Position numbers and translations under genes: made by a program. From Herbidospora cretacea (GTDB lineage Bacteria > Actinomycetota > Actinomycetes > Streptosporangiales > Streptosporangiaceae), in contig NZ_BBXG01000010.1 of assembly GCF_001570605.1 (NCBI RefSeq), forward strand, positions 136,592 through 200,591: a stretch of 64,000 nucleotides of DNA, written 5' to 3'. The notes beneath the pieces are model-generated. The model did not search any database. It was given only the letters and a program-made list of their open reading frames with translations, and was not told the origin of the DNA. Positions 7,212 through 27,853 of this stretch are shown here, piece by piece. Position 1 is the first letter of the stretch, and every line of letters begins with the position of its first letter.

Positions 7212-7275
7212 AAAGGGTGATGGCCCGCCCAGATTGATCACCTTTGTCGGCTTCAGTCCACTTACCACTTGGTAA
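7212..7275. promoter_or_regulatory. Stem-loop and 14-bp palindrome between glnD and the first conservon
   Basis: A hairpin with AAAGGGTGAT and ATCACCTTT arms and one bulge (7212-7245) lies just after glnD and may end its transcript, though no T-run follows. TTACCA-CT-TGGTAA (7262-7275) is a perfect 6-bp dyad, a plausible operator for the conservon kinase that starts at 7413. Nothing else gene-like is seen between 7192 and 7412. Confidence 0.4.
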
Positions 7276-7412
7276 CGATTGTGTCCCCGCCTATGGGAAT
7301 CAAGTGGCTGATCATGACCTTGTGGTCGAATTGTGCCCGCTTGTATGGCTATGTCACTTCATGCTGTCAGGAGTGTGAAGGGCTTTATGTCAAGAACGAA
7401 TGGCGGGGGCCG

Positions 7413-10400
7413 GTGTCCACTCACAAGCGGGCAAGCCGTTTCGCGCTGCGCAACTGGCGGGTGCCCACGAGGCTCACCGCCCTGATCCTCGCGCCGACTC
7501 TGATCGCGGTCATCCTGGCCGGCATGCGGGTCGTCGGCTCGGTCGACAGCCTGTCGGCCTACGAGAGGACCGCGACCGCGGCCGAATACGCCGGTCGTCT
7601 GCGGGAACTGGCGCAGCAGCTGGCGGCCGAGCGCGACCACAAGGCCTGGCTCGACGGCCTGGTCGGAGTCCAGAGCGCCCTGCGCAACGCCGAGGAGACG
7701 ATCCGCCAGCACCAGGACACCCTGGCGAAGCAGAAGCAGGTCGTCGACGGCATGATCAAGGCGTCCACGACCGACCTGGCCGAGATCGACGAGTCCTTCG
7801 GACCGCGCATCGTGGAGGACGCGCGCCAGGTCGCCAACCGGCTGGAGACCGTCACCGACAGCCACGCGGCCGAACGCGACGACGACCCGGCGACCTCGGT
7901 CTTCTTCGAGTACGGCGCGGCCATCGCCGCCGTCCTGCGGCTGCACGACGACCTCGGCGAGCTCAGCGACGACCCCAGCGTGGTCAGCTCCTCCCGCGCG
8001 CTCAGCGCCCTGGCCCACGTCAAGGACGAGGCCTCCCAGCAGCGCGCCCTGCTCGTCGGCGAGCTCCTGGAGCCGCGCCAGTCGTTCACACCCGACGACC
8101 TGCAGCGCTTCCTGGGCTCGTGGTCGCGGCAGGAGACGTACGAGACCGCCTTCAACGCCGAGGCGACCACGGCCCAGTTCCAGGCCTTCCACGCCGCCCG
8201 GATCAGCAAGGCCGGCACCGACGTCGAGATGGCCAAGGCGTGGGCGGTCGCCCTCGGGTCGCGCAACCAGCCGCTGAAGCCGATCCCCGGCCGGGTGCTG
8301 ACCGCGCAGGACTGGTTCCGCGACAACGGCACCGTGCTCGACGCCGTCTCCAAGGTCGAGGCCCAGGTGGCCGGTTCGCTGCGGGCCCGCGCCGACGACC
8401 TCAGGTCGACCGAGCGCCGCAGCGCCATCGTGGCCGGCGCGCTGATCCTCGCGCTGATCCTGCTGGTCCTGGTCACGACCGTGCTGATCGCCCGCTCGAT
8501 GGTGCGCCCGCTGCGGCGGCTGCGCGCCGAGGCGCTGGAGATCGCGGGCAGCCGGCTGCCGGAGATCGTGCGCCGCATGCGCGAGTCGGAGACGGGGGAC
8601 ACCTCCCCGGCCGTGCAGCCCATCGCGGTCGAGAGCCAGGACGAGATCGGCGAGGTCGCGCAGGCCTTCGACGAGGTCCACCTCCAGGCGGTGAAGCTGG
8701 CGGGGGAGGAGTCCCGGCTGCGCAACAACGTCAACGCGATGTTCGTCAACCTGTCGCGGCGCACCCAGACCCTCGTGGAGCGCCAGATCTCCCTGATCGA
8801 CGGCCTGGAACGCGGCGAACAGGACGGCGCCCGCCTGTCCGACCTGTTCAAGCTCGACCACCTGGCCACCCGCATGCGCCGCAACTCCGAGAACCTGCTG
8901 GTCCTCGCCGGTCACGAGACCGCGCGCAAGCGCAGCTCCCCGGCCCGGCTGGTCGACGTCGTCCGCGCCTCGCTGTCGGAGGTCGAGGACTACGAGCGGG
9001 TCGTCGTACGGGTCCACCGCGCCCCGGCCATCGGCGGGCACGCCGCCAACGACGTGGTCCATCTGGTGGCCGAGCTGGTCGAGAACGCCATCTCGTTCTC
9101 GCCGCCCAGCTCGAAGGTCATCGTGTCGAGCAGCCCGATCGAGGGCGGCGCGGTCCTGCTGGCCATCAGCGACACCGGCATGGGCCTCAGCCCCGACGAG
9201 CTGCTGGAGATCAACACCCGCCTGGCCGAGCCGCCCGTCGTCGACGTGTCGGTCTCCCGCCGCATGGGCCTGTTCGTGGTCGGCCGCCTGGCCGGCCGCC
9301 ACGGCATCCGGGTCCAGCTCCGGCGCGGCGACACCAGCGGCATCATCGCGATGGTGCTCTTCCCGGCCGAGCTCATCAGCAACGCCGACGCCCCGGCCCA
9401 GCCCTCCCAGCAGCCGCAGATGACCCGCCCCCGCCCGGAACTCCCGACCGGCCCCCTCCCCGCGATCGCCACCGGCCCCTTCGCCCCGGGCGGCTTGAAC
9501 ACCGGGCCCTTCACCCCGAGCGGCTCGACCACCGGCCCCTTCGCTTCGGGCGGCTCGAACACCGGCCCGTTCGCGTCGGGCAGCTCGACCGGCCCGTTCA
9601 CCTCGGGCGGCTTCACCACCGGCCCGGTGCAGACCGGCCCCGGCTCCACCGGCCCGATCAACACTGGCCCCGTCACCACGGGGGCAGGCGGCCTGCCGCA
9701 GCGCAAGCCTCCAGCGCCCCGCACTCCGGGAGACGACTCCTCCTCGCCCTCGCGGGTGCCCCGGCAGAGCTCGCCTCCCGGCGGAACCTTCCCCGGCTTC
9801 GAACGACGCCGCCCGAACAACCCGGCCGGCCCGAGCCCGGCTGGCACGAACAGCCCAGCAGGCCCGAACCTGGCTGGCGCGAACAACCCGGCTGGTCCGA
9901 ACAACCCGGCTGGTCCGAACAGCCCAGCTGGTCTGAACAGCCCGGCCGGTGTGAACGATCAGGCTGGTCCGCGCAACCCCGCTGGTACGAACAACGCCGC
10001 AGGCCTGAGCAACCCGGCAGGCCTGAGCAACACGGTCGGTCCGAACAGCTCCGCAGGTGCGAACACGTCTGGTGCGAACAGCCCGGCTGGTCTGCGTAAC
10101 CCGGCTGGTTCGAACAGTCCGGTGTATCCGGGGAACCCCGCCGACTCGGGTGGGTGGGTGCGGCCGTCGGTGGGGGACACCCGGCCGCATGCGTTGCCCG
10201 CGCCGCCGTTCAACGAGCACTCCGGGGCGTTTCCCGTTCCCGGGCCGCCCGTGCCGTCGAGCGTTCCGGACACTCCGCTGGAGCGGGGGGACGAGTTCCT
10301 GCCGATCTTCGCCTCGATCGAGTCGGCGTGGTTCACGCGGCCGCAGCCGACCGCCACGCCTGGGGCTCCAGATGCTCCTGTGACGCCTGGGACGACTCCC

Positions 10401-10688
10401 TGGGGCCGGCATGCCGATCAGGGCTTCCAGGCGGCCCGTGCGGCCAACGAACCGGCCTCCGGGGGCGTCACACAGTCGGGGCTCCCGAAGCGGACGCCAC
10501 GTGCCAACCTCGTGCCGGGTTCCGTCGGCGCGCAGGGCGGGCCGGGCATCCCGCCGCCGGAGGCGCCCCGGCCGCAGGTCTCGCCGGAGGCCGTGCGTGA
10601 CCGGCTGTCCAGTCTCCAGCAGGGCGTACGCCGAGGGCGCGCGGAAAGGCCGCAGGAAGGCACGGGTAATGAGGAGGAGGGCTCGTGA
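7413..10688 (+). CDS. Conservon sensor histidine kinase, copy 1 (NIT-HAMP-HATPase, long repeat linker)
   Basis: Membrane sensor of the CvnA type. 1091 residues from a GTG at 7413, a start supported because NWRVPTRLTALIL then sits near the N-terminus as in the other two copies; an upstream in-frame TTG at 7269 would pass through the likely promoter. Seen: helix 21-42, an extracytoplasmic helical domain resembling NIT sensors, helix near 337-359, HAMP, FKLDHLATRMRRNSENL with candidate phospho-His483, N box ELVENAISFS, G box DTGMGLS and then SRRMGLFVVGRL. Residues about 665-955 form a low-complexity linker with TGPF-type and then NPAG repeats. A conserved tail follows: DEFLPIF (960), SGLPKRTPRANLVPGS (about 1022) and RLSSLQQGVRRGR. 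No response regulator is adjacent. The stop overlaps the next gene by 4 bases. The ligand is unknown. Confidence 0.88.
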   Translation: MSTHKRASRFALRNWRVPTRLTALILAPTLIAVILAGMRVVGSVDSLSAYERTATAAEYAGRLRELAQQLAAERDHKAWLDGLVGVQSALRNAEETIRQHQDTLAKQKQVVDGMIKASTTDLAEIDESFGPRIVEDARQVANRLETVTDSHAAERDDDPATSVFFEYGAAIAAVLRLHDDLGELSDDPSVVSSSRALSALAHVKDEASQQRALLVGELLEPRQSFTPDDLQRFLGSWSRQETYETAFNAEATTAQFQAFHAARISKAGTDVEMAKAWAVALGSRNQPLKPIPGRVLTAQDWFRDNGTVLDAVSKVEAQVAGSLRARADDLRSTERRSAIVAGALILALILLVLVTTVLIARSMVRPLRRLRAEALEIAGSRLPEIVRRMRESETGDTSPAVQPIAVESQDEIGEVAQAFDEVHLQAVKLAGEESRLRNNVNAMFVNLSRRTQTLVERQISLIDGLERGEQDGARLSDLFKLDHLATRMRRNSENLLVLAGHETARKRSSPARLVDVVRASLSEVEDYERVVVRVHRAPAIGGHAANDVVHLVAELVENAISFSPPSSKVIVSSSPIEGGAVLLAISDTGMGLSPDELLEINTRLAEPPVVDVSVSRRMGLFVVGRLAGRHGIRVQLRRGDTSGIIAMVLFPAELISNADAPAQPSQQPQMTRPRPELPTGPLPAIATGPFAPGGLNTGPFTPSGSTTGPFASGGSNTGPFASGSSTGPFTSGGFTTGPVQTGPGSTGPINTGPVTTGAGGLPQRKPPAPRTPGDDSSSPSRVPRQSSPPGGTFPGFERRRPNNPAGPSPAGTNSPAGPNLAGANNPAGPNNPAGPNSPAGLNSPAGVNDQAGPRNPAGTNNAAGLSNPAGLSNTVGPNSSAGANTSGANSPAGLRNPAGSNSPVYPGNPADSGGWVRPSVGDTRPHALPAPPFNEHSGAFPVPGPPVPSSVPDTPLERGDEFLPIFASIESAWFTRPQPTATPGAPDAPVTPGTTPWGRHADQGFQAARAANEPASGGVTQSGLPKRTPRANLVPGSVGAQGGPGIPPPEAPRPQVSPEAVRDRLSSLQQGVRRGRAERPQEGTGNEEEGS

Positions 10689-11104
10689 CTGAGCTCAGTG
10701 TCGACGTGAGCAGGTTCGACTGGCTGATCACCGACTTCGTCGGCGGCACTCCTGGGGTGGCGCACGCCGTGGTCGTGTCGGCCGACGGCCTGCGGCTGGC
10801 CCACTCCGCCGGGTTCCCGCCCGACCGGGCCGACCAGCTCGCGGCGGTGGCCGCCGGGCTGGCCTCGCTGACCACCGGCGCCTCCCGCGTCTTCGAGGGC
10901 GGACCGGTCCGGCAGACCGTCGTGGAGATGCAGCGCGGACTGCTCATGGTGATGTCGATCAGTGACGGATCGGCCCTCGCCGTACTGGCGTCACACGATT
11001 GTGATCTGGGACTTGTGGCGTACCAGATGACCCTCCTGGTGGAGCGCGCCGGACAGGCGCTGACCCCGGCTCTGCGCGCCGAGCTGCACTCGGCGCGGCG
11101 GTGA
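10685..11104 (+). CDS. Roadblock/LC7-domain protein of conservon 1 (CvnB type)
   Basis: 139-residue MglB-like roadblock protein, expected to bind the Ras-like GTPase of the same operon and act as an activator or scaffold at the membrane kinase. Seen: FDWLITDFVGGTPGVAHAVV followed by the strand-helix pattern VVSADGLRLAHSAGF, and MQRGLLMVMSISDGSALAVL. A GTG start overlaps the kinase stop (GTGA). It keeps the same motifs as copies 2 and 3 but is the most divergent (PDRADQ rather than KDRADQ). Confidence 0.9.
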   Translation: MTELSVDVSRFDWLITDFVGGTPGVAHAVVVSADGLRLAHSAGFPPDRADQLAAVAAGLASLTTGASRVFEGGPVRQTVVEMQRGLLMVMSISDGSALAVLASHDCDLGLVAYQMTLLVERAGQALTPALRAELHSARR

Positions 11105-11110
11105 TGCCCG

Positions 11111-11473
11111 GTGCGCGCGGGTGAGGGGACCGACGACGAACCTCTTTTCCGTCCCTACGCCGTCACCGGAGGACGCGCCGAGCCGCGTTACCATCTGGCG
11201 ATGGAGACGCTGGTCTCCACGGCGGCCATGATGGGCGATGACTACTCCCTGCTCGGCCCCGAGCAGGAGGCGATCATGACGCTCTGCCGATCCGTCCGAT
11301 CGGTCGCGGAGATCTCCGCGCTGCTCCGGGTCCCCCTCGGAGTGGCACGGGTCCTGATCGCCGACATGGCCGACGAAGGGCTGGTGCGACTGCACATGCC
11401 ACAGCTCATCAGCAGCGGCCAGCCGGACCTTACTTTGCTCGAAAGGGTGCTCAGTGGACTTCGCAGGCTCTAG
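11111..11473 (+). CDS. DUF742 protein of conservon 1 (CvnC type)
   Basis: 120 residues, GTG start 6 bases after the roadblock gene stop. Seen: RPYAVTGGRAEPR near the N-terminus and a winged-helix-like core with SVRSVAEISALLRVPLGVARVLIADMADEGLV, ending LLERVLSGLRRL. The family is known only as the third member of conservons; the helix-turn-helix look suggests a protein or nucleic-acid binding fold, but no function is proven. Its last 20 bases also encode the start of the GTPase. Confidence 0.9.
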   Translation: MRAGEGTDDEPLFRPYAVTGGRAEPRYHLAMETLVSTAAMMGDDYSLLGPEQEAIMTLCRSVRSVAEISALLRVPLGVARVLIADMADEGLVRLHMPQLISSGQPDLTLLERVLSGLRRL

Positions 11474-12038
11474 TCGCGGCCTGACCTCGACGAAGATCGT
11501 CGTGGCGGGCGGTTTCGGCGTGGGCAAGACGACGTTCGTCGGCGCCGTCTCGGAGATCCTTCCGCTGACGACCGAGGCCGTCATGACCGACGCCAGCGCG
11601 GGGATCGACGACCTCGGGCTCACACCGGAGAAGACGACCACGACGGTCGCCATGGACTTCGGCCGTCTGTCCCTCGATCAGGACCTGATCCTTTACCTGT
11701 TCGGAACCCCCGGGCAGCACAGGTTCTGGTTCATGTGGGACGATCTGGTCCGCGGCGCGATCGGCGCGGTAGTGCTGGTCGACAGCCGTAGGCTGGCCGA
11801 CAGCTTCCCGGCGATCGACTACTTCGAGGAGGCGCAGCTTCCGTTCGTCGTGGCGCTGAATGGGTGGGACGGCGTGTTCCTGCACGTCGAAGACCAGATT
11901 CGCGAGGCTCTGTCGCTGCAGCCGCACGTGCCCATCGTGCGGACCGACGCGCGGTCCCGGGAAGCGGTCAAGTCCACCCTGATCACCCTTGTTGAGTACG
12001 TACTGACCGTACGGTCCGCATACGGTCGGCAATACTGA
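11454..12038 (+). CDS. Ras-like small GTPase of conservon 1 (CvnD type)
   Basis: 194-residue nucleotide-binding switch. Seen: Walker A GGFGVGKT (residues 19-26), the switch region with repeated threonines (KTTTTVAMDFGR), G3 motif FGTPGQHRFWFMWDD with GTPGQ at 84-88, and NGWD (136-139) where Ras proteins have NKxD, then TDARS as the G5 equivalent. The GTG start lies inside the DUF742 gene, with GAAAGGGTG upstream as ribosome site. Related to MglA-type GTPases; expected partners are the roadblock protein and the kinase tail. Confidence 0.92.
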   Translation: MDFAGSSRGLTSTKIVVAGGFGVGKTTFVGAVSEILPLTTEAVMTDASAGIDDLGLTPEKTTTTVAMDFGRLSLDQDLILYLFGTPGQHRFWFMWDDLVRGAIGAVVLVDSRRLADSFPAIDYFEEAQLPFVVALNGWDGVFLHVEDQIREALSLQPHVPIVRTDARSREAVKSTLITLVEYVLTVRSAYGRQY

Positions 12039-14829: not shown

Positions 14830-14958
14830 TTAGCACCAATCGCACTGGATGTCCGATTCGGCGATCCGAGTGTAATTCGCTGATCTGGTAACAGTGTGTT
14901 CCAATTTCTGGTGCCATAGAGGGCAACAGGAGTGACAGGCGAGAGGTTGTAAAAGCCA

Positions 14959-17900
14959 GTGACAACGCACGACCCGCGAGGTGGCCTCGGCATCGAGGCA
15001 GGCGTGCAGGAGAAGGCGGCGCCCGCCCCCGCCGCCAAAGCTCCAGGGGCCGCGTTCCTGCGGCTGGGAAACTGGCGGGTGCGCTCCCGTCTCGTCGCCC
15101 TGATCCTGCTCCCGACGGTGGTCGGTGTCATCTTCGCGGCGGTGCAGCTCACCTCCGCGATCAACACCTCCGCCGAATACCGGAGACTGACCGAGGTGTC
15201 GCGGCTCGTGGTCCAGCTCGACGGGCTGAACCACGAGCTCGCCAAGGAGCGCGACTACACGGCCTGGTTCATCCAGGAGGGCCGCCGCAACAACCGGTTC
15301 GACGAGGTCCAGGAGATCTCCAAGAAGGTCGACGACCTTTCCGGCGAAGCACTTGCCACGCTCCAGTCCCTCGACTCCAGCCACTCCGCCCGCGTGCTCA
15401 ACCGGGCCGCCAAGATCGCCGGATGGCTCCGCGGTCTGGAGGGTCTGCGCAAGGGTGTCCGTGACAACGACAGCGTGCCCGCCCGGGCGGCCGAGGTCAT
15501 GTACACCTCGATGATCTCCGAGCTCACCTCGCTCCACGAGGACCTGATCCGCTCCGCCGGCTCCGACGAGCGCCTGTTCGCCGACACCACCGCCCTGGCC
15601 GCCCTCACCCGGGCCAAGGAAGACGTCTCCAAGAGCCGCGGCCTGCTCACCATCACCCTGTCGACCAGGCCCACCGCCCGTGGTTACGTCTTCGACTACG
15701 ACGACCTGTCCGACTTCCTCAGCGCCGGCCGCTCCCAGGACGCCCAGCTCGCCATCTTCCAGAGCGAGGCCTCCCCGGCCGACGCCGCCTTCTACCGCCA
15801 GACGGTCAGGGGCGAGATGGCCGAGCGCTCCCACTCGATGCGCGCCGCCGCCCTCGCCCAGCTCCGCCAGTTCAACGGCGCGATCCGTGACCTCGACCGC
15901 ACCCGCCAGGACGACCTCCAGCGCTGGTTCGACTCCACCTCCGCCACGGTCGACCTCATGCGTGAGGTCGAGAAGCGGGTCGGCGACTCGGTCGTCAACC
16001 AGTCGGTCGCCCTCCAGGACGCGGAGCAGCGCAACGCCATCGTCTCCGGCGTGCTGATCGTCGTCCTGCTGCTCGTGGTCCTCGTCATCACCACCCTGGT
16101 CGCCGGTTCGCTCACCCGGCCGCTGCGCCGCCTGCGCCGCGAGGCCCTGGAGATCGCCGGTTCGCGTCTTCCCGACACGGTCCAGAAGCTGCGTGAGTCC
16201 GGTGAGGCCGCCGACCTGCCCGAGGTCGCCCCCATCGGCGTCACCACCTCCGACGAGATCGGTGAAGTGGCGCGCGCCTTCGACGAGGTCCACCGCGAGG
16301 CGATCCGGCTGGCCGGCGACGAGGCCCGCCTGCGGAGCAACGTCAACTCGATGTTCGTCAACCTCTCGCGCCGCACCCAGACGCTGGTGGAACGCCAGCT
16401 GTCCCTCATCGACGGCCTGGAGCAGGGCGAGCAGGACGAGACCCGGCTGGGCAACCTGTTCAAGCTCGACCACCTCGCGACGCGCATGCGCCGCAACTCC
16501 GAGAACCTCCTGGTCCTCGCCGGCCAGGAACCCGCCCGCCGCTGGGGCCAGCCGGTCCCGATCGTCGACGTCGTCCGCGCCTCCCTCTCCGAGGTCGAGA
16601 ACTACGAGCGCGTCGCCATCCAGGTGCAGTCGGGCGCGGCCGTCGTCGGTCAGTCCGTCAACGACGTCGTCCACCTCATCGCCGAGCTGGTCGAGAACGC
16701 CATCTCCTTCTCGCCGCGCGAGACCCGCGTCACCGTGTCGAGCAACCGCATCGACGGCGGCGGTCTGATGATCTCCGTGAGTGACGTCGGCATCGGCATG
16801 ACCGGCGAGGAGCTCGGCGCGGCCAACTGGCGCCTGGCCAACCCGCCCGTCGTCGACGTGTCGGTGTCCCGCCGCATGGGCCTGTTCGTGGTCGGCCGCC
16901 TGGCCCTGCGCCACGGCATCCGCGTCCAGCTCCGCCAGCAGGACGTCGGCGGTCTCACCGCGATGGTGCTGCTGCCCGAGACCCTGCTCGCGCAGGCGGC
17001 CAACGCCTTCCCCGGCGCGCCGCAGCAGCAGGGCGGCCTGCCCACGGGCGGGCAGCCCGCGCTGCCCGGCCCGCAGCAGGGGTACGGCGCCCCCGCCGTC
17101 AGCGGCTCGTTCGGGCAGCAGCCCGCGCTGGCCAGCCCCACCCCGTTCGAGACGATGCCGCGCCCCTTCGGCAGCGACGGACCGCCCGACCCCTGGGCGA
17201 GCACGACCGGCGGAACCCCCTTCGATGCCTCCTCCTTCGGACAGCTGCCGCAGCGCAACCCGTTCGAGAGCACCCCGAACCCGCTGTCGCCCGCCACGCC
17301 GCCCGCCCCGCGCAACCCCTTCGACCAGCCTGAACGCGACCCGTTCGCGCCCGCCCCCGAGCAGGGTTCCTTCGACACCGGGCCGCAGGGCCGGCGGATG
17401 TTCGGCGGGGGGCCGAGCCCGACCGACACCGGCCCGTTCGACCGCACCGCGTTCGCCCGCGGCCCGCTCGACAGCGGCGCCTTCGAGCCCCCGGCCGGAT
17501 ACGACCAGCGCGGTGGCTTCGACACGGGCGGCCACGCCCTGGGCGGCCAGAACACCGGTGGTCACAGCACGGGCGGTCTCGGCATGGGCGGCTTCCCCTC
17601 GGGCGGCTACCCGGCTCCGGGTGCGAACAACACGCCGTGGCCGGGGCAGACGCCCGGATCCGGCACCCCTGGATGGCCCGGCGGACCGGCCGAGAACGGT
17701 TCCTGGCCGGGTACGCCCGCTAACCGCGGGCCCTTCGAACCTGATGTCGACAACACCGGACCGCTGCCCGCGGTCCGGAACTCGCCCCTCGACGAGATCG
17801 ACGAGTTCCTGCCGATCTTCGCCGCCGTGGAGTCCGACTGGTTCCGGCGTGCGCCGGAGCAGGAGGTCCCCGGCGACGACGAGAGCCCCGGTGAGCGCAC

Positions 17901-18240
17901 CGCGTGGTCGTCCCCCGCGGTCGACGCCGGTTGGCAGGCCGCCCAGGCGGCGGCCGAGCCCTCACTCGGCGGCATCACCTCGTCCGGCCTGCCGAAGCGG
18001 GTGCCCAAGGCCAACCTGGTGCCCGGCTCGGCCGAACTGGCCGCGCCCTCGGCTCCCGTGCCGGTGGCTCCCGCGCCGTCGCTGTCGCCCGATCGCGTGC
18101 GCAACCGCCTGGCCAGCTTCCAGGCCGGCGTACGGCAGGGCCGCGCGGTGGCGAGGGGAGACATCAGCGAGGAGCAGGGTTGGCCCGGGGCGAACCCCGC
18201 CCAGAGTCAGGGTCAAGAGACCGATAAGGATGAGGCATGA
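14959..18240 (+). CDS. Conservon sensor histidine kinase, copy 2
   Basis: 1093-residue CvnA-type membrane kinase. The GTG start at 14959 has GAGAGG upstream. Seen: NWRVRSRLVALIL leading into helix 45-65, a NIT-like sensor domain, helix near 359-382, HAMP with LTRPLRRLRREALEIAG, FKLDHLATRMRRNSENL with candidate His505, N box ELVENAISFS, G box DVGIGMT, and SRRMGLFVVGRLALRHG. A linker rich in Pro, Gly and Gln follows (about 690-940, with GGxxxGG runs such as TGGHSTGGLGMGGF). The tail has TGPLPAVR, DEFLPIF (948), SGLPKRVPKANLVPGS (about 1009) and RLASFQAGVRQGRAV. The stop overlaps the roadblock start by 4 bases. No regulator partner lies nearby. Confidence 0.9.
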   Translation: MTTHDPRGGLGIEAGVQEKAAPAPAAKAPGAAFLRLGNWRVRSRLVALILLPTVVGVIFAAVQLTSAINTSAEYRRLTEVSRLVVQLDGLNHELAKERDYTAWFIQEGRRNNRFDEVQEISKKVDDLSGEALATLQSLDSSHSARVLNRAAKIAGWLRGLEGLRKGVRDNDSVPARAAEVMYTSMISELTSLHEDLIRSAGSDERLFADTTALAALTRAKEDVSKSRGLLTITLSTRPTARGYVFDYDDLSDFLSAGRSQDAQLAIFQSEASPADAAFYRQTVRGEMAERSHSMRAAALAQLRQFNGAIRDLDRTRQDDLQRWFDSTSATVDLMREVEKRVGDSVVNQSVALQDAEQRNAIVSGVLIVVLLLVVLVITTLVAGSLTRPLRRLRREALEIAGSRLPDTVQKLRESGEAADLPEVAPIGVTTSDEIGEVARAFDEVHREAIRLAGDEARLRSNVNSMFVNLSRRTQTLVERQLSLIDGLEQGEQDETRLGNLFKLDHLATRMRRNSENLLVLAGQEPARRWGQPVPIVDVVRASLSEVENYERVAIQVQSGAAVVGQSVNDVVHLIAELVENAISFSPRETRVTVSSNRIDGGGLMISVSDVGIGMTGEELGAANWRLANPPVVDVSVSRRMGLFVVGRLALRHGIRVQLRQQDVGGLTAMVLLPETLLAQAANAFPGAPQQQGGLPTGGQPALPGPQQGYGAPAVSGSFGQQPALASPTPFETMPRPFGSDGPPDPWASTTGGTPFDASSFGQLPQRNPFESTPNPLSPATPPAPRNPFDQPERDPFAPAPEQGSFDTGPQGRRMFGGGPSPTDTGPFDRTAFARGPLDSGAFEPPAGYDQRGGFDTGGHALGGQNTGGHSTGGLGMGGFPSGGYPAPGANNTPWPGQTPGSGTPGWPGGPAENGSWPGTPANRGPFEPDVDNTGPLPAVRNSPLDEIDEFLPIFAAVESDWFRRAPEQEVPGDDESPGERTAWSSPAVDAGWQAAQAAAEPSLGGITSSGLPKRVPKANLVPGSAELAAPSAPVPVAPAPSLSPDRVRNRLASFQAGVRQGRAVARGDISEEQGWPGANPAQSQGQETDKDEA

Positions 18241-18659
18241 GGGAAATGAGCCAGGCCGCTCGCGGCGTCAATTGGCTGATCACAGACTTCGTGAACAACG
18301 TGCCCGGTGTGGCGCACACGGTTGTGGTCTCCGCTGACGGGTTGCCCCTGGCGTACTCGGAGGGATTCCCCAAGGATCGCGCCGACCAGCTCGCGGCGGT
18401 GGCCGCCGGGCTGATCTCGTTGACGCAGGGTGCCTCGCGGGTCTTCGAGGGTGGAGCCGTAACGCAGACCGTGGTCGAGATGCAGCGTGGGCTGCTTTTG
18501 ATCATGTCGATCAGCGATGGTTCCTGTCTGGCCGTGCTGGCCGCGGCCGACTGTGACATGGGTCTGGTGGCGTACCAGATGACGCTGCTGGTCGAGCGGG
18601 CGGGTCAGGTCCTGACCCCGGCCGTCCGCGCCGAGCTCCAGGCTTCCCACCCGCGTTGA
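18237..18659 (+). CDS. Roadblock/LC7-domain protein of conservon 2 (CvnB type)
   Basis: 140 residues, with ATGA overlap to the kinase stop; an ATG 9 bases further in is an alternative start. Seen: GVNWLITDFVNNVPGVAHTV, VVSADGLPLAYSEGFPKDRADQ and LLIMSISDGSCLAVLAAADC. Very similar over its whole length to the copy 3 protein, less so to copy 1, suggesting that copies 2 and 3 share a more recent ancestor or that their GTPase interfaces are conserved. Expected to bind the GTPase of this operon. Confidence 0.92.
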   Translation: MREMSQAARGVNWLITDFVNNVPGVAHTVVVSADGLPLAYSEGFPKDRADQLAAVAAGLISLTQGASRVFEGGAVTQTVVEMQRGLLLIMSISDGSCLAVLAAADCDMGLVAYQMTLLVERAGQVLTPAVRAELQASHPR

Positions 18660-24036: not shown

Positions 24037-24437
24037 AGGTGGAGTCTCCTTAGATGGGGGAGTCACACCCGCCCATGGCCGAAGATCGCGGGGCCCGGCG
24101 GGCGACGGCGAAGACTGTAGCGGTTCGAAATCACCATCAACAGGAATAAGAGCACTATGTCACCAAACTTGTAAATAAATAAGGCCCTGTAACTTTTGTA
24201 CACCAAAGGTGTCGTGTGTCCGTTTGGACCGGTCCAGCAATCTTCTGACCTGAGTTCCTGGATTCGATCACGCTGTGACCAGCAGTCCGGTAACTATGCG
24301 GTAAATGGTCACCCTTGGAACGGGCCAAAACCAATGTGGCTATTGGTAGAGCTACGAGTCATATGCTCCAATTGCCCCTGGCTTATGGGAGGTATCCCGA
24401 AGAAAATTGAAATTTCTTTATCGGAAGGGTGCGGCCT
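24037..24437. promoter_or_regulatory. Divergent promoter region between the ABC operon and conservon 3
   Basis: 401 bases without a gene, markedly more AT-rich than the surroundings, especially 24130-24200 (AAATAAATAAGG). It holds ACACC-AAA-GGTGT (24200-24212) and the perfect 12-bp palindrome TGGACCGGTCCA (24225-24236), both candidate operators. GAAAATTGAAATTTC near 24401-24415 lies close to the conservon kinase start. Confidence 0.5.
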
Positions 24438-27422
24438 GTGAGGACGGCAACGATCGAGCGTGATCACCGCACCGCGCCCGAGGCTCCGCCGGAGCCCCCG
24501 AGGGAACCGGCCGGACATCGGGACACGACCTCCAATCGGATGGCGTTGCACAACTGGCGGGTCCGTAACCGCCTCATCGCACTGATCATGATTCCGACCG
24601 TCGCCGCGGTCGTTCTCGGCGCCATGCGCGTCATCAGCGCGGTTACCAGTGCCGCGGAATATCAGCGAGTGAGTGATATCGCAGCGTTCACCGGAACGCT
24701 TGGTGAGCTCGTCCATGAGCTCGAACTGGAACAGAGTTTGACTAGCCGGTACGCATCCGGCAATCGCACCAATGAGTCCGAACTTAACCTGATCGACGCA
24801 CAACAGGCCAAAGTGGACTTAGCTGCGGAGAAAGTGCAGGACCGCGTCCCCGAGATCGCGGATTCGCTCGGTGACCTCGGCAAGGAGAAACTGACCCGGG
24901 TCGACGGCCGGCTCAGCGAACTGCCCAACCTCCGCGAGGTCACCGTCAAGTCCGACCTCCTGGCGCTGCCGACGATCGAGAAGTACTCCCTCGTCATCGG
25001 CGACCTCCTGCGCTTCTACGAAGAGGTCGCCCAGGGCGGCACGGACGAGGCCATCGACGGCACCAGCACCGCGATGACCGCGCTGGCCCGCGCCAAGCAC
25101 GAGCAGTCGACCATGCGAAGCCTGCTCGACGTCGGCATCAAGAAGCGCAGCTTCACCCCCAACGAGCTCGACGCCCTGACCGCCGCGCGCAAGCGGTTCG
25201 AGAGCGAGATCAGCGCGTTCCGGCTCGCGGCCACCCCGGCCGAACGCCAGCTCTACGCCGACACGGTGACCGGCTCCCAGATCGACCAGGCCGAGTTCCT
25301 GCGGGGCTCGGCCATGGAGCGCATCCGCCTCGACCGGCAGATCGTCAACCTCGACGGCACCCCCGGCGACGACTCGAAGGTGTGGTTCGAGGCCAGCAGC
25401 TTCGGCATCAACCGCATGTACGAGGTCGAGAAGGCCCTGGACAAGTCGATCATCGACCAGGCCGACGCGCTGGCCGCGTCCGACCAGCGCGGCGCCCTCG
25501 TCAACATCCTGATCGTCGTGGTCATCCTGGCGCTGGTGCTGCTCATCACCACCGGGATGGCGCGCTCGCTGACCACGCCGCTGCGCCGGCTGCGGTCGGA
25601 GGCGCTGGAGATCGCCGGGCACCGGCTGCCCGACCTCGTCCAGCGGCTGCGTGAGACCGACGCCTCCGCCCAGGACTCCCCGCCGCACGTCGCCCCCATC
25701 GGCGTCAGCGGCGCCGACGAGATCGGTGAAGTGGCGCGGGCCTTCGACGAGGTCCACCGCGAGGCGGTCCGGCTGGCCGGCGACGAGTCCCGGCTGCGCA
25801 GCAACATCAGCGCGATGTTCGTCAACCTCTCCCGCCGCACCCAGACGCTGGTGGAACGCCAGATCGCCCTGATCGACGGCCTGGAGCAGGGTGAGCAGGA
25901 CGAGGCGCGGCTGGGCAACCTGTTCAAGCTCGACCACCTCGCGACGCGCATGCGCCGCAACTCGGAGAACCTCCTGGTCCTCGCGGGCCAGGAGCCCGCC
26001 CGCCGGTGGAGCCAGCCGGTGGAGGTCACCGACGTCGTGCGCGCCTCCCTGTCGGAGGTCGAGGGCTACGAACGCGTCGTCATCAACGTGCCCGGCGAGG
26101 TCTCGCTGGCCGGTCAGGCCGTCAACGACGTCATCCACCTGCTCGCCGAGCTGGTGGAGAACGCCATCTCCTTCTCCGCGCGCGACACCCGCGTCATCGT
26201 CTCGGGCAACCGGATCGACGGCGGGGGAGTGATGGTGTCGGTGACCGACTCCGGCATCGGCATGAACCCCGACGAGATCGGCGCCACGAACTGGCGGCTG
26301 GCCAACCCGCCGGTCGTCGACGTGTCGGTGTCCCGCCGCATGGGCCTGTTCGTGGTCGGCCGGCTCGCGCTGCGCAACGGCATCCGCGTGCAGATAAGGA
26401 ATCACGACGGCGGCGGCCTCACCGCGATGGTGCTGCTGCCCGAATCGCTGATCGCCTCCGCGCCCAACGCGGTGCAGCAGTCCCAGCACTACAACACCGG
26501 CGGGTACGCCCCCACCTGGTCCCCCAAGGCCCAGATGACCCAGGGGCCCGCGGACACCACCGGCGGCTGGGGCGCGCCGCAGCTCGGCGCGCCGGGCGCA
26601 CGGCCCGCGCTGCCCTCACCGGGTCCGCTCGGCCCGTCGACGGGGCCCTACCAGAGCCCGTCCCCGGCGCCCGTCCAGCACACGGGCCCGCATTACGCGG
26701 CCCCGCAGCACACCGGACCCCAGCACACGGGTCCCCAGCAGCACATCGGCCAGCAGCACACCGGTCCGCAGCACACCGGTCCGCAGCACATGGGCCAGCA
26801 GCACACGGGCCCGCAGAACTCGCTGTTCGGACCGCCTCCCCGGCAGCAGGCCCCCCTCCAGGGGCCGAACGGCGCGCCCGGCGGGCAGCCGCCCACCATG
26901 TTCGGGCCGCCGCCGCCGATGCAGCAGCAGCCCGGCGGGCCGCTGCCCCGGCGCAGGTTCGACTCGGCGCTGGGCGGCCTCTCGGGGCTGTCCGAAAGGG
27001 ACGCCGACGTCACCGGCCCGCTGCCGGCCGTCAGGGAACCGGCGGGACAGGACCGTCCCGAGGAGTTCCTGCCGATCTTCGCCTCGGTGGAGTCCGCGTG
27101 GTTCAAGAAGCCCGAGGACGACACCAAGGTCGAGGAGGTCTGGAAGGAGTCGAAGGCCGACTCCGCGTGGGGCGTCGCCGCCCAGCAGCCCCAGTTCGAG
27201 GCCAGCACCTCAGCCGGCCTGCCCAAGCGCGTACCCAAGGCCAACCTGGTTCCCGGCTCCGCCGAGCCGAACCGGCAGGCGGCCGTGTCACCCCCGCCGT
27301 CCCTCTCTCCCGACCGCGCCAGAAGCCGGCTCTCCAGCCTCCAACACGGAGTACGCCAGGGCCGTGCCGTGGCCCGGGGTGAGATCAGCGAGGACGAGGG
27401 TTACTCAGGAAGAGGGGAATGA
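24438..27422 (+). CDS. Conservon sensor histidine kinase, copy 3
   Basis: 994-residue CvnA-type membrane kinase. The GTG at 24438 has GGAAGGG 8 bases upstream; the GTG at 24429 overlaps that site. Seen: NWRVRNRLIALIM and helix 46-66, a NIT-like helical sensor domain, a second helix (ALVNILIVVVILALVLLITT), HAMP, FKLDHLATRMRRNSENL with candidate His500, ELVENAISFS, DSGIGMN and SRRMGLFVVGRLALRNG. A shorter linker (about 690-870) carries QHTGP repeats. The tail repeats TGPLPAVR, EEFLPIF (about 875), GLPKRVPKANLVPGSA and RLSSLQHGVRQGRAV. ATGA overlap to the next gene. Confidence 0.9.
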   Translation: MRTATIERDHRTAPEAPPEPPREPAGHRDTTSNRMALHNWRVRNRLIALIMIPTVAAVVLGAMRVISAVTSAAEYQRVSDIAAFTGTLGELVHELELEQSLTSRYASGNRTNESELNLIDAQQAKVDLAAEKVQDRVPEIADSLGDLGKEKLTRVDGRLSELPNLREVTVKSDLLALPTIEKYSLVIGDLLRFYEEVAQGGTDEAIDGTSTAMTALARAKHEQSTMRSLLDVGIKKRSFTPNELDALTAARKRFESEISAFRLAATPAERQLYADTVTGSQIDQAEFLRGSAMERIRLDRQIVNLDGTPGDDSKVWFEASSFGINRMYEVEKALDKSIIDQADALAASDQRGALVNILIVVVILALVLLITTGMARSLTTPLRRLRSEALEIAGHRLPDLVQRLRETDASAQDSPPHVAPIGVSGADEIGEVARAFDEVHREAVRLAGDESRLRSNISAMFVNLSRRTQTLVERQIALIDGLEQGEQDEARLGNLFKLDHLATRMRRNSENLLVLAGQEPARRWSQPVEVTDVVRASLSEVEGYERVVINVPGEVSLAGQAVNDVIHLLAELVENAISFSARDTRVIVSGNRIDGGGVMVSVTDSGIGMNPDEIGATNWRLANPPVVDVSVSRRMGLFVVGRLALRNGIRVQIRNHDGGGLTAMVLLPESLIASAPNAVQQSQHYNTGGYAPTWSPKAQMTQGPADTTGGWGAPQLGAPGARPALPSPGPLGPSTGPYQSPSPAPVQHTGPHYAAPQHTGPQHTGPQQHIGQQHTGPQHTGPQHMGQQHTGPQNSLFGPPPRQQAPLQGPNGAPGGQPPTMFGPPPPMQQQPGGPLPRRRFDSALGGLSGLSERDADVTGPLPAVREPAGQDRPEEFLPIFASVESAWFKKPEDDTKVEEVWKESKADSAWGVAAQQPQFEASTSAGLPKRVPKANLVPGSAEPNRQAAVSPPPSLSPDRARSRLSSLQHGVRQGRAVARGEISEDEGYSGRGE

Positions 27423-27853
27423 CCAGCGTGAGAGAGATGAGCCAGGCCGCCAGAGGCATCAACTGGCTGATCAACGACTTCGTCCTGTCGGTGCCGGGCG
27501 TCGCCCACACCGTCGTCGTGTCGGCCGACGGCCTGCCGTTGGCCTACTCGGACGGTTTCCCGAAGGACCGCGCCGACCAGCTCGCGGCGGTCGCGGCCGG
27601 GCTCATCTCGCTCACCCAGGGCGCGTCCCGGGTGTTCGAGGGCGGCCCGGTCACCCAGACCGTCGTGGAGATGCAGCGGGGCCTGCTGCTGATCATGTCG
27701 ATCAGCGACGGCTCCTGCCTCTCCGTGCTCGCGGCGGCCGACGCCGACCTGGGGCTGGTGGCGTACCAGATGACGCTGTTCGTCGAGCGTGCCGGTCAGG
27801 TGCTCACTCCCGCGGTCAGGGCCGAACTCCAGGCCTCCAACCCGAGGAGATGA
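27419..27853 (+). CDS. Roadblock/LC7-domain protein of conservon 3 (CvnB type)
   Basis: 144 residues from the ATG overlapping the kinase stop; a GTG at 27428 would give a start matching copy 2 (REMSQAARG). Seen: GINWLINDFVLSVPGVAHTV, VVSADGLPLAYSDGFPKDRA and LLIMSISDGSCLSVLAAADA. Near-identical in its core to copy 2. It should dimerise and bind the GTPase encoded two genes downstream. Confidence 0.92.
   Translation: MTSVREMSQAARGINWLINDFVLSVPGVAHTVVVSADGLPLAYSDGFPKDRADQLAAVAAGLISLTQGASRVFEGGPVTQTVVEMQRGLLLIMSISDGSCLSVLAAADADLGLVAYQMTLFVERAGQVLTPAVRAELQASNPRR

Follow-up and report, generated by a model that had tools for sequence, protein, structure and literature searches.

A conserved C-terminal tail behind a fast-evolving linker in conservon sensor kinases, a candidate docking module for the roadblock protein CvnB

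The window analyzed here, a stretch of 64,000 nucleotides from Herbidospora cretacea (contig NZ_BBXG01000010.1, positions 136,592 to 200,591), contains three tandem conservons with the gene order cvnA-cvnB-cvnC-cvnD, at 7.4-12.0 kb, 15.0-19.6 kb and 24.4-28.8 kb (Table 1). All three CvnA copies have NIT (PF08376), HAMP (PF00672) and HATPase_c (PF02518) domains above the Pfam cut-off. Pfam also identifies the genes that follow cvnA in copy 1 as encoding a roadblock/LC7 protein, a DUF742 protein and a small GTPase, and HMMs built in this analysis find the same partner genes, in conservon order, downstream of copies 2 and 3. This operon order and these domains are typical of conservons (CvnA-CvnD; Mfp in mycobacteria), which form a G-protein-like signaling system of soil actinobacteria. 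The host genome is 8.28 Mb and has eight DUF742 loci, and its closest named relatives are Herbidospora species. The mechanically called open reading frame of cvnA copy 1 begins with a TTG at 7269, and the true start probably lies downstream of it. Very long open reading frames run antisense over the kinase genes (7359-10412 and 14830-17565, both on the minus strand); these are expected in high-GC coding DNA, and we take them to be artefacts.

Table 1. Conservon genes and features of the CvnA C-termini, in positions of the 64,000-nucleotide window.
Feature	Positions	Strand	Description
cvnA copy 1	7416-10688	+	Sensor kinase (NIT, HAMP, HATPase_c, linker, tail)
Linker, copy 1	9366-10289	+	Low complexity, 308 aa, TGPF and NPAG repeats, DNA tandem arrays
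M1, copy 1	10290-10334	+	DEFLPIFASIESAWF
M2, copy 1	10479-10523	+	GLPKRTPRANLVPGS
M3, copy 1	10581-10640	+	SPEAVRDRLSSLQQGVRRGR; same segment in relatives is a predicted helix
cvnB copy 1	10685-11104	+	Roadblock/LC7 (PF03259); overlaps cvnA end
cvnC copy 1	11111-11473	+	DUF742 (PF05331)
cvnD copy 1	11454-12038	+	Small GTPase (PF03029)
cvnA copy 2	14959-18240	+	
M1, copy 2	17800-17844	+	DEFLPIFAAVESDWF; TGPLPAVR at 17755
M2, copy 2	17986-18030	+	GLPKRVPKANLVPGS
M3, copy 2	18085-18144	+	SPDRVRNRLASFQAGVRQGR
cvnB copy 2	18237-18659	+	
cvnA copy 3	24429-27422	+	
M1, copy 3	27060-27104	+	EEFLPIFASVESAWF; TGPLPAVR at 27012
M2, copy 3	27216-27260	+	GLPKRVPKANLVPGS
M3, copy 3	27306-27365	+	SPDRARSRLSSLQHGVRQGR
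cvnB copy 3	27419-27853	+	

Beyond the ATPase domain each of the three kinases continues into a linker and then ends in a tail with three shared motifs, whose consensus is (D/E)EFLPIFxxxESxWF for M1, GLPKRxPxANLVPGS for M2 and SPxxxRxRLxSxQxGVRxGR for M3; the first residue of M1 is D in copies 1 and 2 and E in copy 3. The initial annotation had proposed this arrangement, with equivalent tails near 17800-18240 and 27060-27422, and all three motifs are present where it placed them. So is the TGPLPAVR that it put ahead of them in copies 2 and 3; copy 1 has TGPLPAI at the start of its linker (9447). Its description of the linkers as low in complexity also holds, and the DNA of two of them is tandemly repeated, in copy 1 with 30-bp and 18-bp units (9470-9679 and 9811-10138) and in copy 3 with a 15/30-bp unit (26676-26816); its estimate of 180-290 residues for their length does not, as we measured 308, 274 and 206 residues from the end of the ATPase domain to M1 in copies 1, 2 and 3, respectively. 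The periods of these arrays, 15-60 bp, are multiples of three. Repeat expansion is one likely origin of the fast change of the linker.

We compared how the kinase core, linker and tail have diverged. In 40 pairs with related kinases the median identity is 78% for the core, 25% for the linker and 49% for the tail, which agrees with the earlier view of a fast-changing linker, and against close Herbidospora relatives the corresponding values are 97-99%, 73-80% and 90-96%. In five pairs dN/dS is 0.03-0.16 for the core, 0.22-0.60 for the linker and 0.16-0.22 for the tail, and the constraint on the tail therefore acts on the protein. The linker thus evolves fast, and purifying selection acts on the tail at the level of the protein. 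A nucleotide-level cause of tail conservation, such as RNA structure or translational coupling, is disfavored, since dS in the tail is at least that of the core and dN is low. Across 121 kinases, positions i, +4, +7 and +11 of M3 are hydrophobic, and M3 also has conserved arginines. The serines of M3 interchange with A, T, G and N, and we dropped a reading of them as Ser/Thr phosphorylation sites for that reason. Among the 50 M2-M3 columns of the same 121 kinases there is no conserved His or Asp acceptor of the kind found in a phosphotransfer or receiver domain. No Pfam or NCBIfam model covers the tail in any of the three window kinases, and a search of the PDB sequences with the tail profile gave no match.

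The motifs are not peculiar to this window. We sampled the 79 loci nearest the query and, in addition, a broad set from even draws over the class and phylum, and detected tails with an iterated profile of M2 and M3. Since this profile was refined on the very kinases that it scores, shuffled sequences, rather than the profile's own E-values, served as the control. None of 1800 shuffled C-termini exceeded 9.7 bits, as compared with 153 real matches in the last building round. Strict patterns behave in the same way: of 180 kinases, 91 and 48 have the two strict M2 patterns (0.0 and 0.05 expected from shuffled C-termini), strict M3 occurs in 97 (0.1 expected) and EFLPIF in 34 (0.0 expected), so that the counts lie at least two orders of magnitude above expectation. 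Far from being absent from most CvnA proteins, which would have spoken against the original proposal, the M2+M3 tail outscores all 1800 shuffles in 72 of the 85 kinases (85%) that are linked to CvnB in the broad sample, and it is kept in 127 of 128 CvnB-linked kinases that have a canonical core (at least 250 bits). M2 and M3 are family-wide. M1 is not universal: its EFLPIF form is mostly confined to the clade of the window, and tandem conservons of Streptomyces carry a relaxed version, PIFxSIESDWF. The initial observation was correct, and it is broader than had been stated. Fourteen CvnB-linked kinases fall short of the threshold for a tail, and 12 of the 13 that came from the first sample have divergent cores.

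The profile search of actinobacterial genomes that had been suggested as a check gave CvnA-specific matches. In 69 genomes of the class, the only matches of the tail profile (A8) at E<=1e-3 are CvnA kinases and three contig-end fragments; the latter are in G074, G092 and G106, where, by a reading of the coordinates, a kinase is cut at the end of another contig. Weaker matches at 0.004-0.006 were taken as chance. The tail is thus near-exclusive to CvnA.

We then asked which partner genes accompany the tail in 186 kinases. It is present in 144 of the 158 kinases with a cvnB gene in cis and in 14 of the 28 without one (Fisher p 1.2e-6, a value that ignores relatedness). Full operons have the tail in 130 cases and lack it in 14, and all 14 partial operons that include CvnB have it (CvnB and CvnC, 6/0; CvnB and CvnD, 4/0; CvnB only, 4/0). 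When independent pairs differing in CvnB were drawn on a FastTree of the kinase core, which has long branches and yields few independent events, tail and CvnB change in the same direction in 7.1 of 12 pairs and in opposite directions in none (median p 0.016); in CvnB-bearing kinases on the same tree, loss of CvnC or CvnD never accompanies tail loss. Because the tail adjoins cvnB on the DNA, the two could be lost in a single deletion, and the association could then be overstated. The window's own genome offers a natural experiment, in that a CvnA with a C-terminus of 12 residues adjoins a DUF742 gene directly, with no roadblock gene between them. In this genome the tail-less pair of kinase and DUF742 gene, at 4155-6421 of L010 (contig C9), lies in convergent orientation to a full conservon of the opposite strand. 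Lone kinases without a tail occur on two R. pyridinivorans plasmids and on R. jostii pRHL1. Since the tail is kept almost whenever a roadblock gene adjoins the kinase, it is probably a hook that holds the roadblock partner. A full-tail kinase with no recognized downstream partners, convergent with a complete conservon, is found in a Planotetraspora sp. (L018, 8431-9894, minus strand).

It is rather unlikely, though it is the strongest of the alternatives, that the DUF742 protein CvnC is the main partner of the tail, or that CvnB and CvnC occupy different parts of it and the tail scaffolds a roadblock-DUF742-GTPase complex. Among CvnB-less kinases the tail is commoner when CvnC is the only partner (13 of 19) than in kinases with no partner gene (1 of 9; Fisher p 0.013), the kinase-CvnC pairs L011 and L126, from two genera, have the tail in common, and CvnA9 reportedly contacts CvnC9 as well as CvnB9 (below). 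Six such pairs have no tail, however, CvnC loss leaves the tail unaffected when CvnB is present, and operons with CvnB or with CvnB and CvnD that lack CvnC keep the tail in 8 of 8 cases. Those with CvnB alone include Kitasatospora sp. NBC_00039 and Rhodococcus opacus VOC-14, as well as L040 and L185, recognized by HMM; those with CvnB and CvnD but no DUF742 gene are on four Rhodococcus plasmids, annotated in R. opacus 1CP and recognized by HMM in three. The latter plasmid loci are L232, L233, L234 and L237, and L230 and L236 are two-gene operons of kinase and roadblock gene. From gene content the order of partners thus points to CvnB first, CvnC second and the GTPase least, and this pattern makes CvnB the best-supported partner, with CvnC a possible second. 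Tail-bearing kinases without a CvnB gene in cis may use CvnC, or a CvnB whose gene lies elsewhere in the genome. Kinase and DUF742 pairs that keep the tail in the absence of roadblock and GTPase genes are recurrent and include L011, L126, L033, L064, L142, L209, L212 and others, and in several tail-bearing pairs of this type the final RxGR of M3 is altered to RRAE or RRAR.

Structure prediction was performed with AlphaFold2 on single chains from natural in-frame loci, in which the kinase stop codon was read as Ser (no readthrough is claimed). In the model of tail plus CvnB (A6, L059) CvnB folds well and M3 forms a helix with pLDDT of about 90, with values up to 71 for M2 and 56-67 for M1; in the model of tail plus CvnC (A7, L064) the same M3 helix is predicted, also at about 90, and M1 and M2 are at 50-62. 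Neither single-chain model shows convincing docking, and they do not discriminate between CvnB and CvnC; as pLDDT is low in M1 and M2 (50-71), docking is not demonstrated by the models. In these predictions M3 is helix-prone and its docking place is not revealed. Foldseek and VIA-align searches with the tail plus CvnB model returned the roadblock domain alone and barely probed the tail; structural matches of the modeled CvnB are solved roadblock proteins from actinobacteria, MglB, and the roadblock proteins of Ragulator and dynein. Partial Mantel co-variation with the tail is 0.153 for CvnB, 0.053 for CvnC and 0.060 for CvnD, and -0.20 to 0.35 for windows of the kinase core; the CvnB value is no stronger than those of kinase-core segments, and we set it aside as evidence.

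We consider it improbable that the tail is autoregulatory within the kinase, folding back onto the DHp and ATPase domains or onto the partner protomer. In favor of this are the covalent attachment of the tail to those domains and the amphipathic, basic character of its helix, yet some kinases combine a canonical ATPase core with no tail (L010 plus strand, L223, L224 and L229), and retention of the tail tracks partner genes. That M3 is instead a basic amphipathic helix for localization to the membrane or envelope is in keeping with its hydrophobic stripe (i, +4, +7, +11) and conserved arginines, but is very improbable, since transmembrane segments already anchor CvnA and such a helix leaves M2, M1 and the CvnB dependence unexplained. 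Equally doubtful is that the CvnB link is a by-product of adjacency, with cvnB deletions clipping cvnA at its 3' end and another purpose for the tail: the tail is immediately next to cvnB or overlaps it, and several tail-less kinases stop 8-34 residues past the ATPase domain, but motif-less C-terminal extensions of 50-110 residues occur in L160, L206-L208, L213 and L229, and the near-complete retention in canonical CvnB-linked kinases argues against it.

These considerations lead us to favor, at somewhat better than even confidence, the idea that CvnB, and perhaps CvnC too, docks on the conserved tail as a tethered module, with direct binding presumed. The original suggestion of a docking peptide on a flexible tether, for the GTPase, roadblock or DUF742 protein, is partly supported: it fits all of the findings, and the partner pattern favors the roadblock protein. 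Gene content, retention in canonical cores, the amphipathic M3, dN/dS of the tail, the CvnA9 two-hybrid result and the roadblock parallels (below) all fit this reading; counted against it are the models without clear docking, the 13 CvnB-less kinase-CvnC pairs that have a tail, the adjacency of tail and cvnB on the DNA, the unremarkable co-variation with CvnB and the 14 CvnB-linked kinases below threshold. According to citations in PMC8510531 and PMC9739842, CvnA9 contacts CvnB9 and CvnC9 in the two-hybrid assay (Komatsu 2006), a result that concerns a kinase whose own tail lay outside this analysis. We infer linker disorder, CvnB as the main partner and any effect on GTPase cycling. Membrane-anchored CvnA would hold the CvnB roadblock dimer through the amphipathic helix of M3 and the extended basic, proline-containing segment of M2, with M1 adding to the hold in some clades, and the CvnD GTPase would be held beside the kinase through CvnB. 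The long, presumably disordered tether could let bound CvnB reach the dimerization and ATPase domains as well as CvnD, and the state of the sensor could in this way control CvnB, the GTPase-activating partner.

Published accounts of conservons that we found lack a conserved CvnA tail: a 2026 MfpD preprint describes a longer C-terminal region of actinobacterial MfpE without notable sequence conservation (PMC13015309), and the terminal regions of CvnA8 are described as unstructured and of low confidence in a 2026 CvnF8 paper that states the target of CvnA8 phosphorylation to be unknown (PMC13343842). In the CvnA proteins sampled here, many show conservation at the end of that region. We found no description of the tail in the open-licence literature, and an earlier account elsewhere is possible. 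PMC5680233 and PMC5696360 describe p18/LAMTOR1 as a membrane-anchored protein that wraps roadblock heterodimers serving small GTPases, and the modeled CvnB resembles the Ragulator roadblocks (Z about 15-17). The parallel is one of working only; we found no homology of the tail to LAMTOR1 and claim none, and the anchor in the conservon is a sensor kinase. More tentatively, and with less than even confidence, we suggest that the tail is the missing physical link in conservon signaling, an independently evolved, LAMTOR1-like disordered belt on a histidine kinase that carries the roadblock/GTPase switch at the membrane and so parallels Ragulator-type scaffolding in bacteria. As described in PMC9771362, the dynein intermediate chain is partly disordered and holds dimeric light chains; its complex with roadblock (3l9k) is a structural match of modeled CvnB, although no sequence relation between intermediate chain and CvnA tail is shown. 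MglB is likewise the roadblock partner of a small GTPase, MglA, and the modeled CvnB matches it with Z 17-18. We know of no tethered sensor kinase of the CvnA form in the MglA-MglB system.

Conservons are present in antibiotic producers and in Mycobacterium tuberculosis. A tail of about 50 residues that is widely shared, CvnA-specific and kept with CvnB is a concrete candidate for the link from kinase to roadblock protein and GTPase, and soluble kinase constructs without it may miss the coupling. Finally, at L235 (Rhodococcus opacus pRho-G13) a CvnA-type core is spread over two reading frames, with two adjacent partial core matches, and is probably a frameshifted gene.
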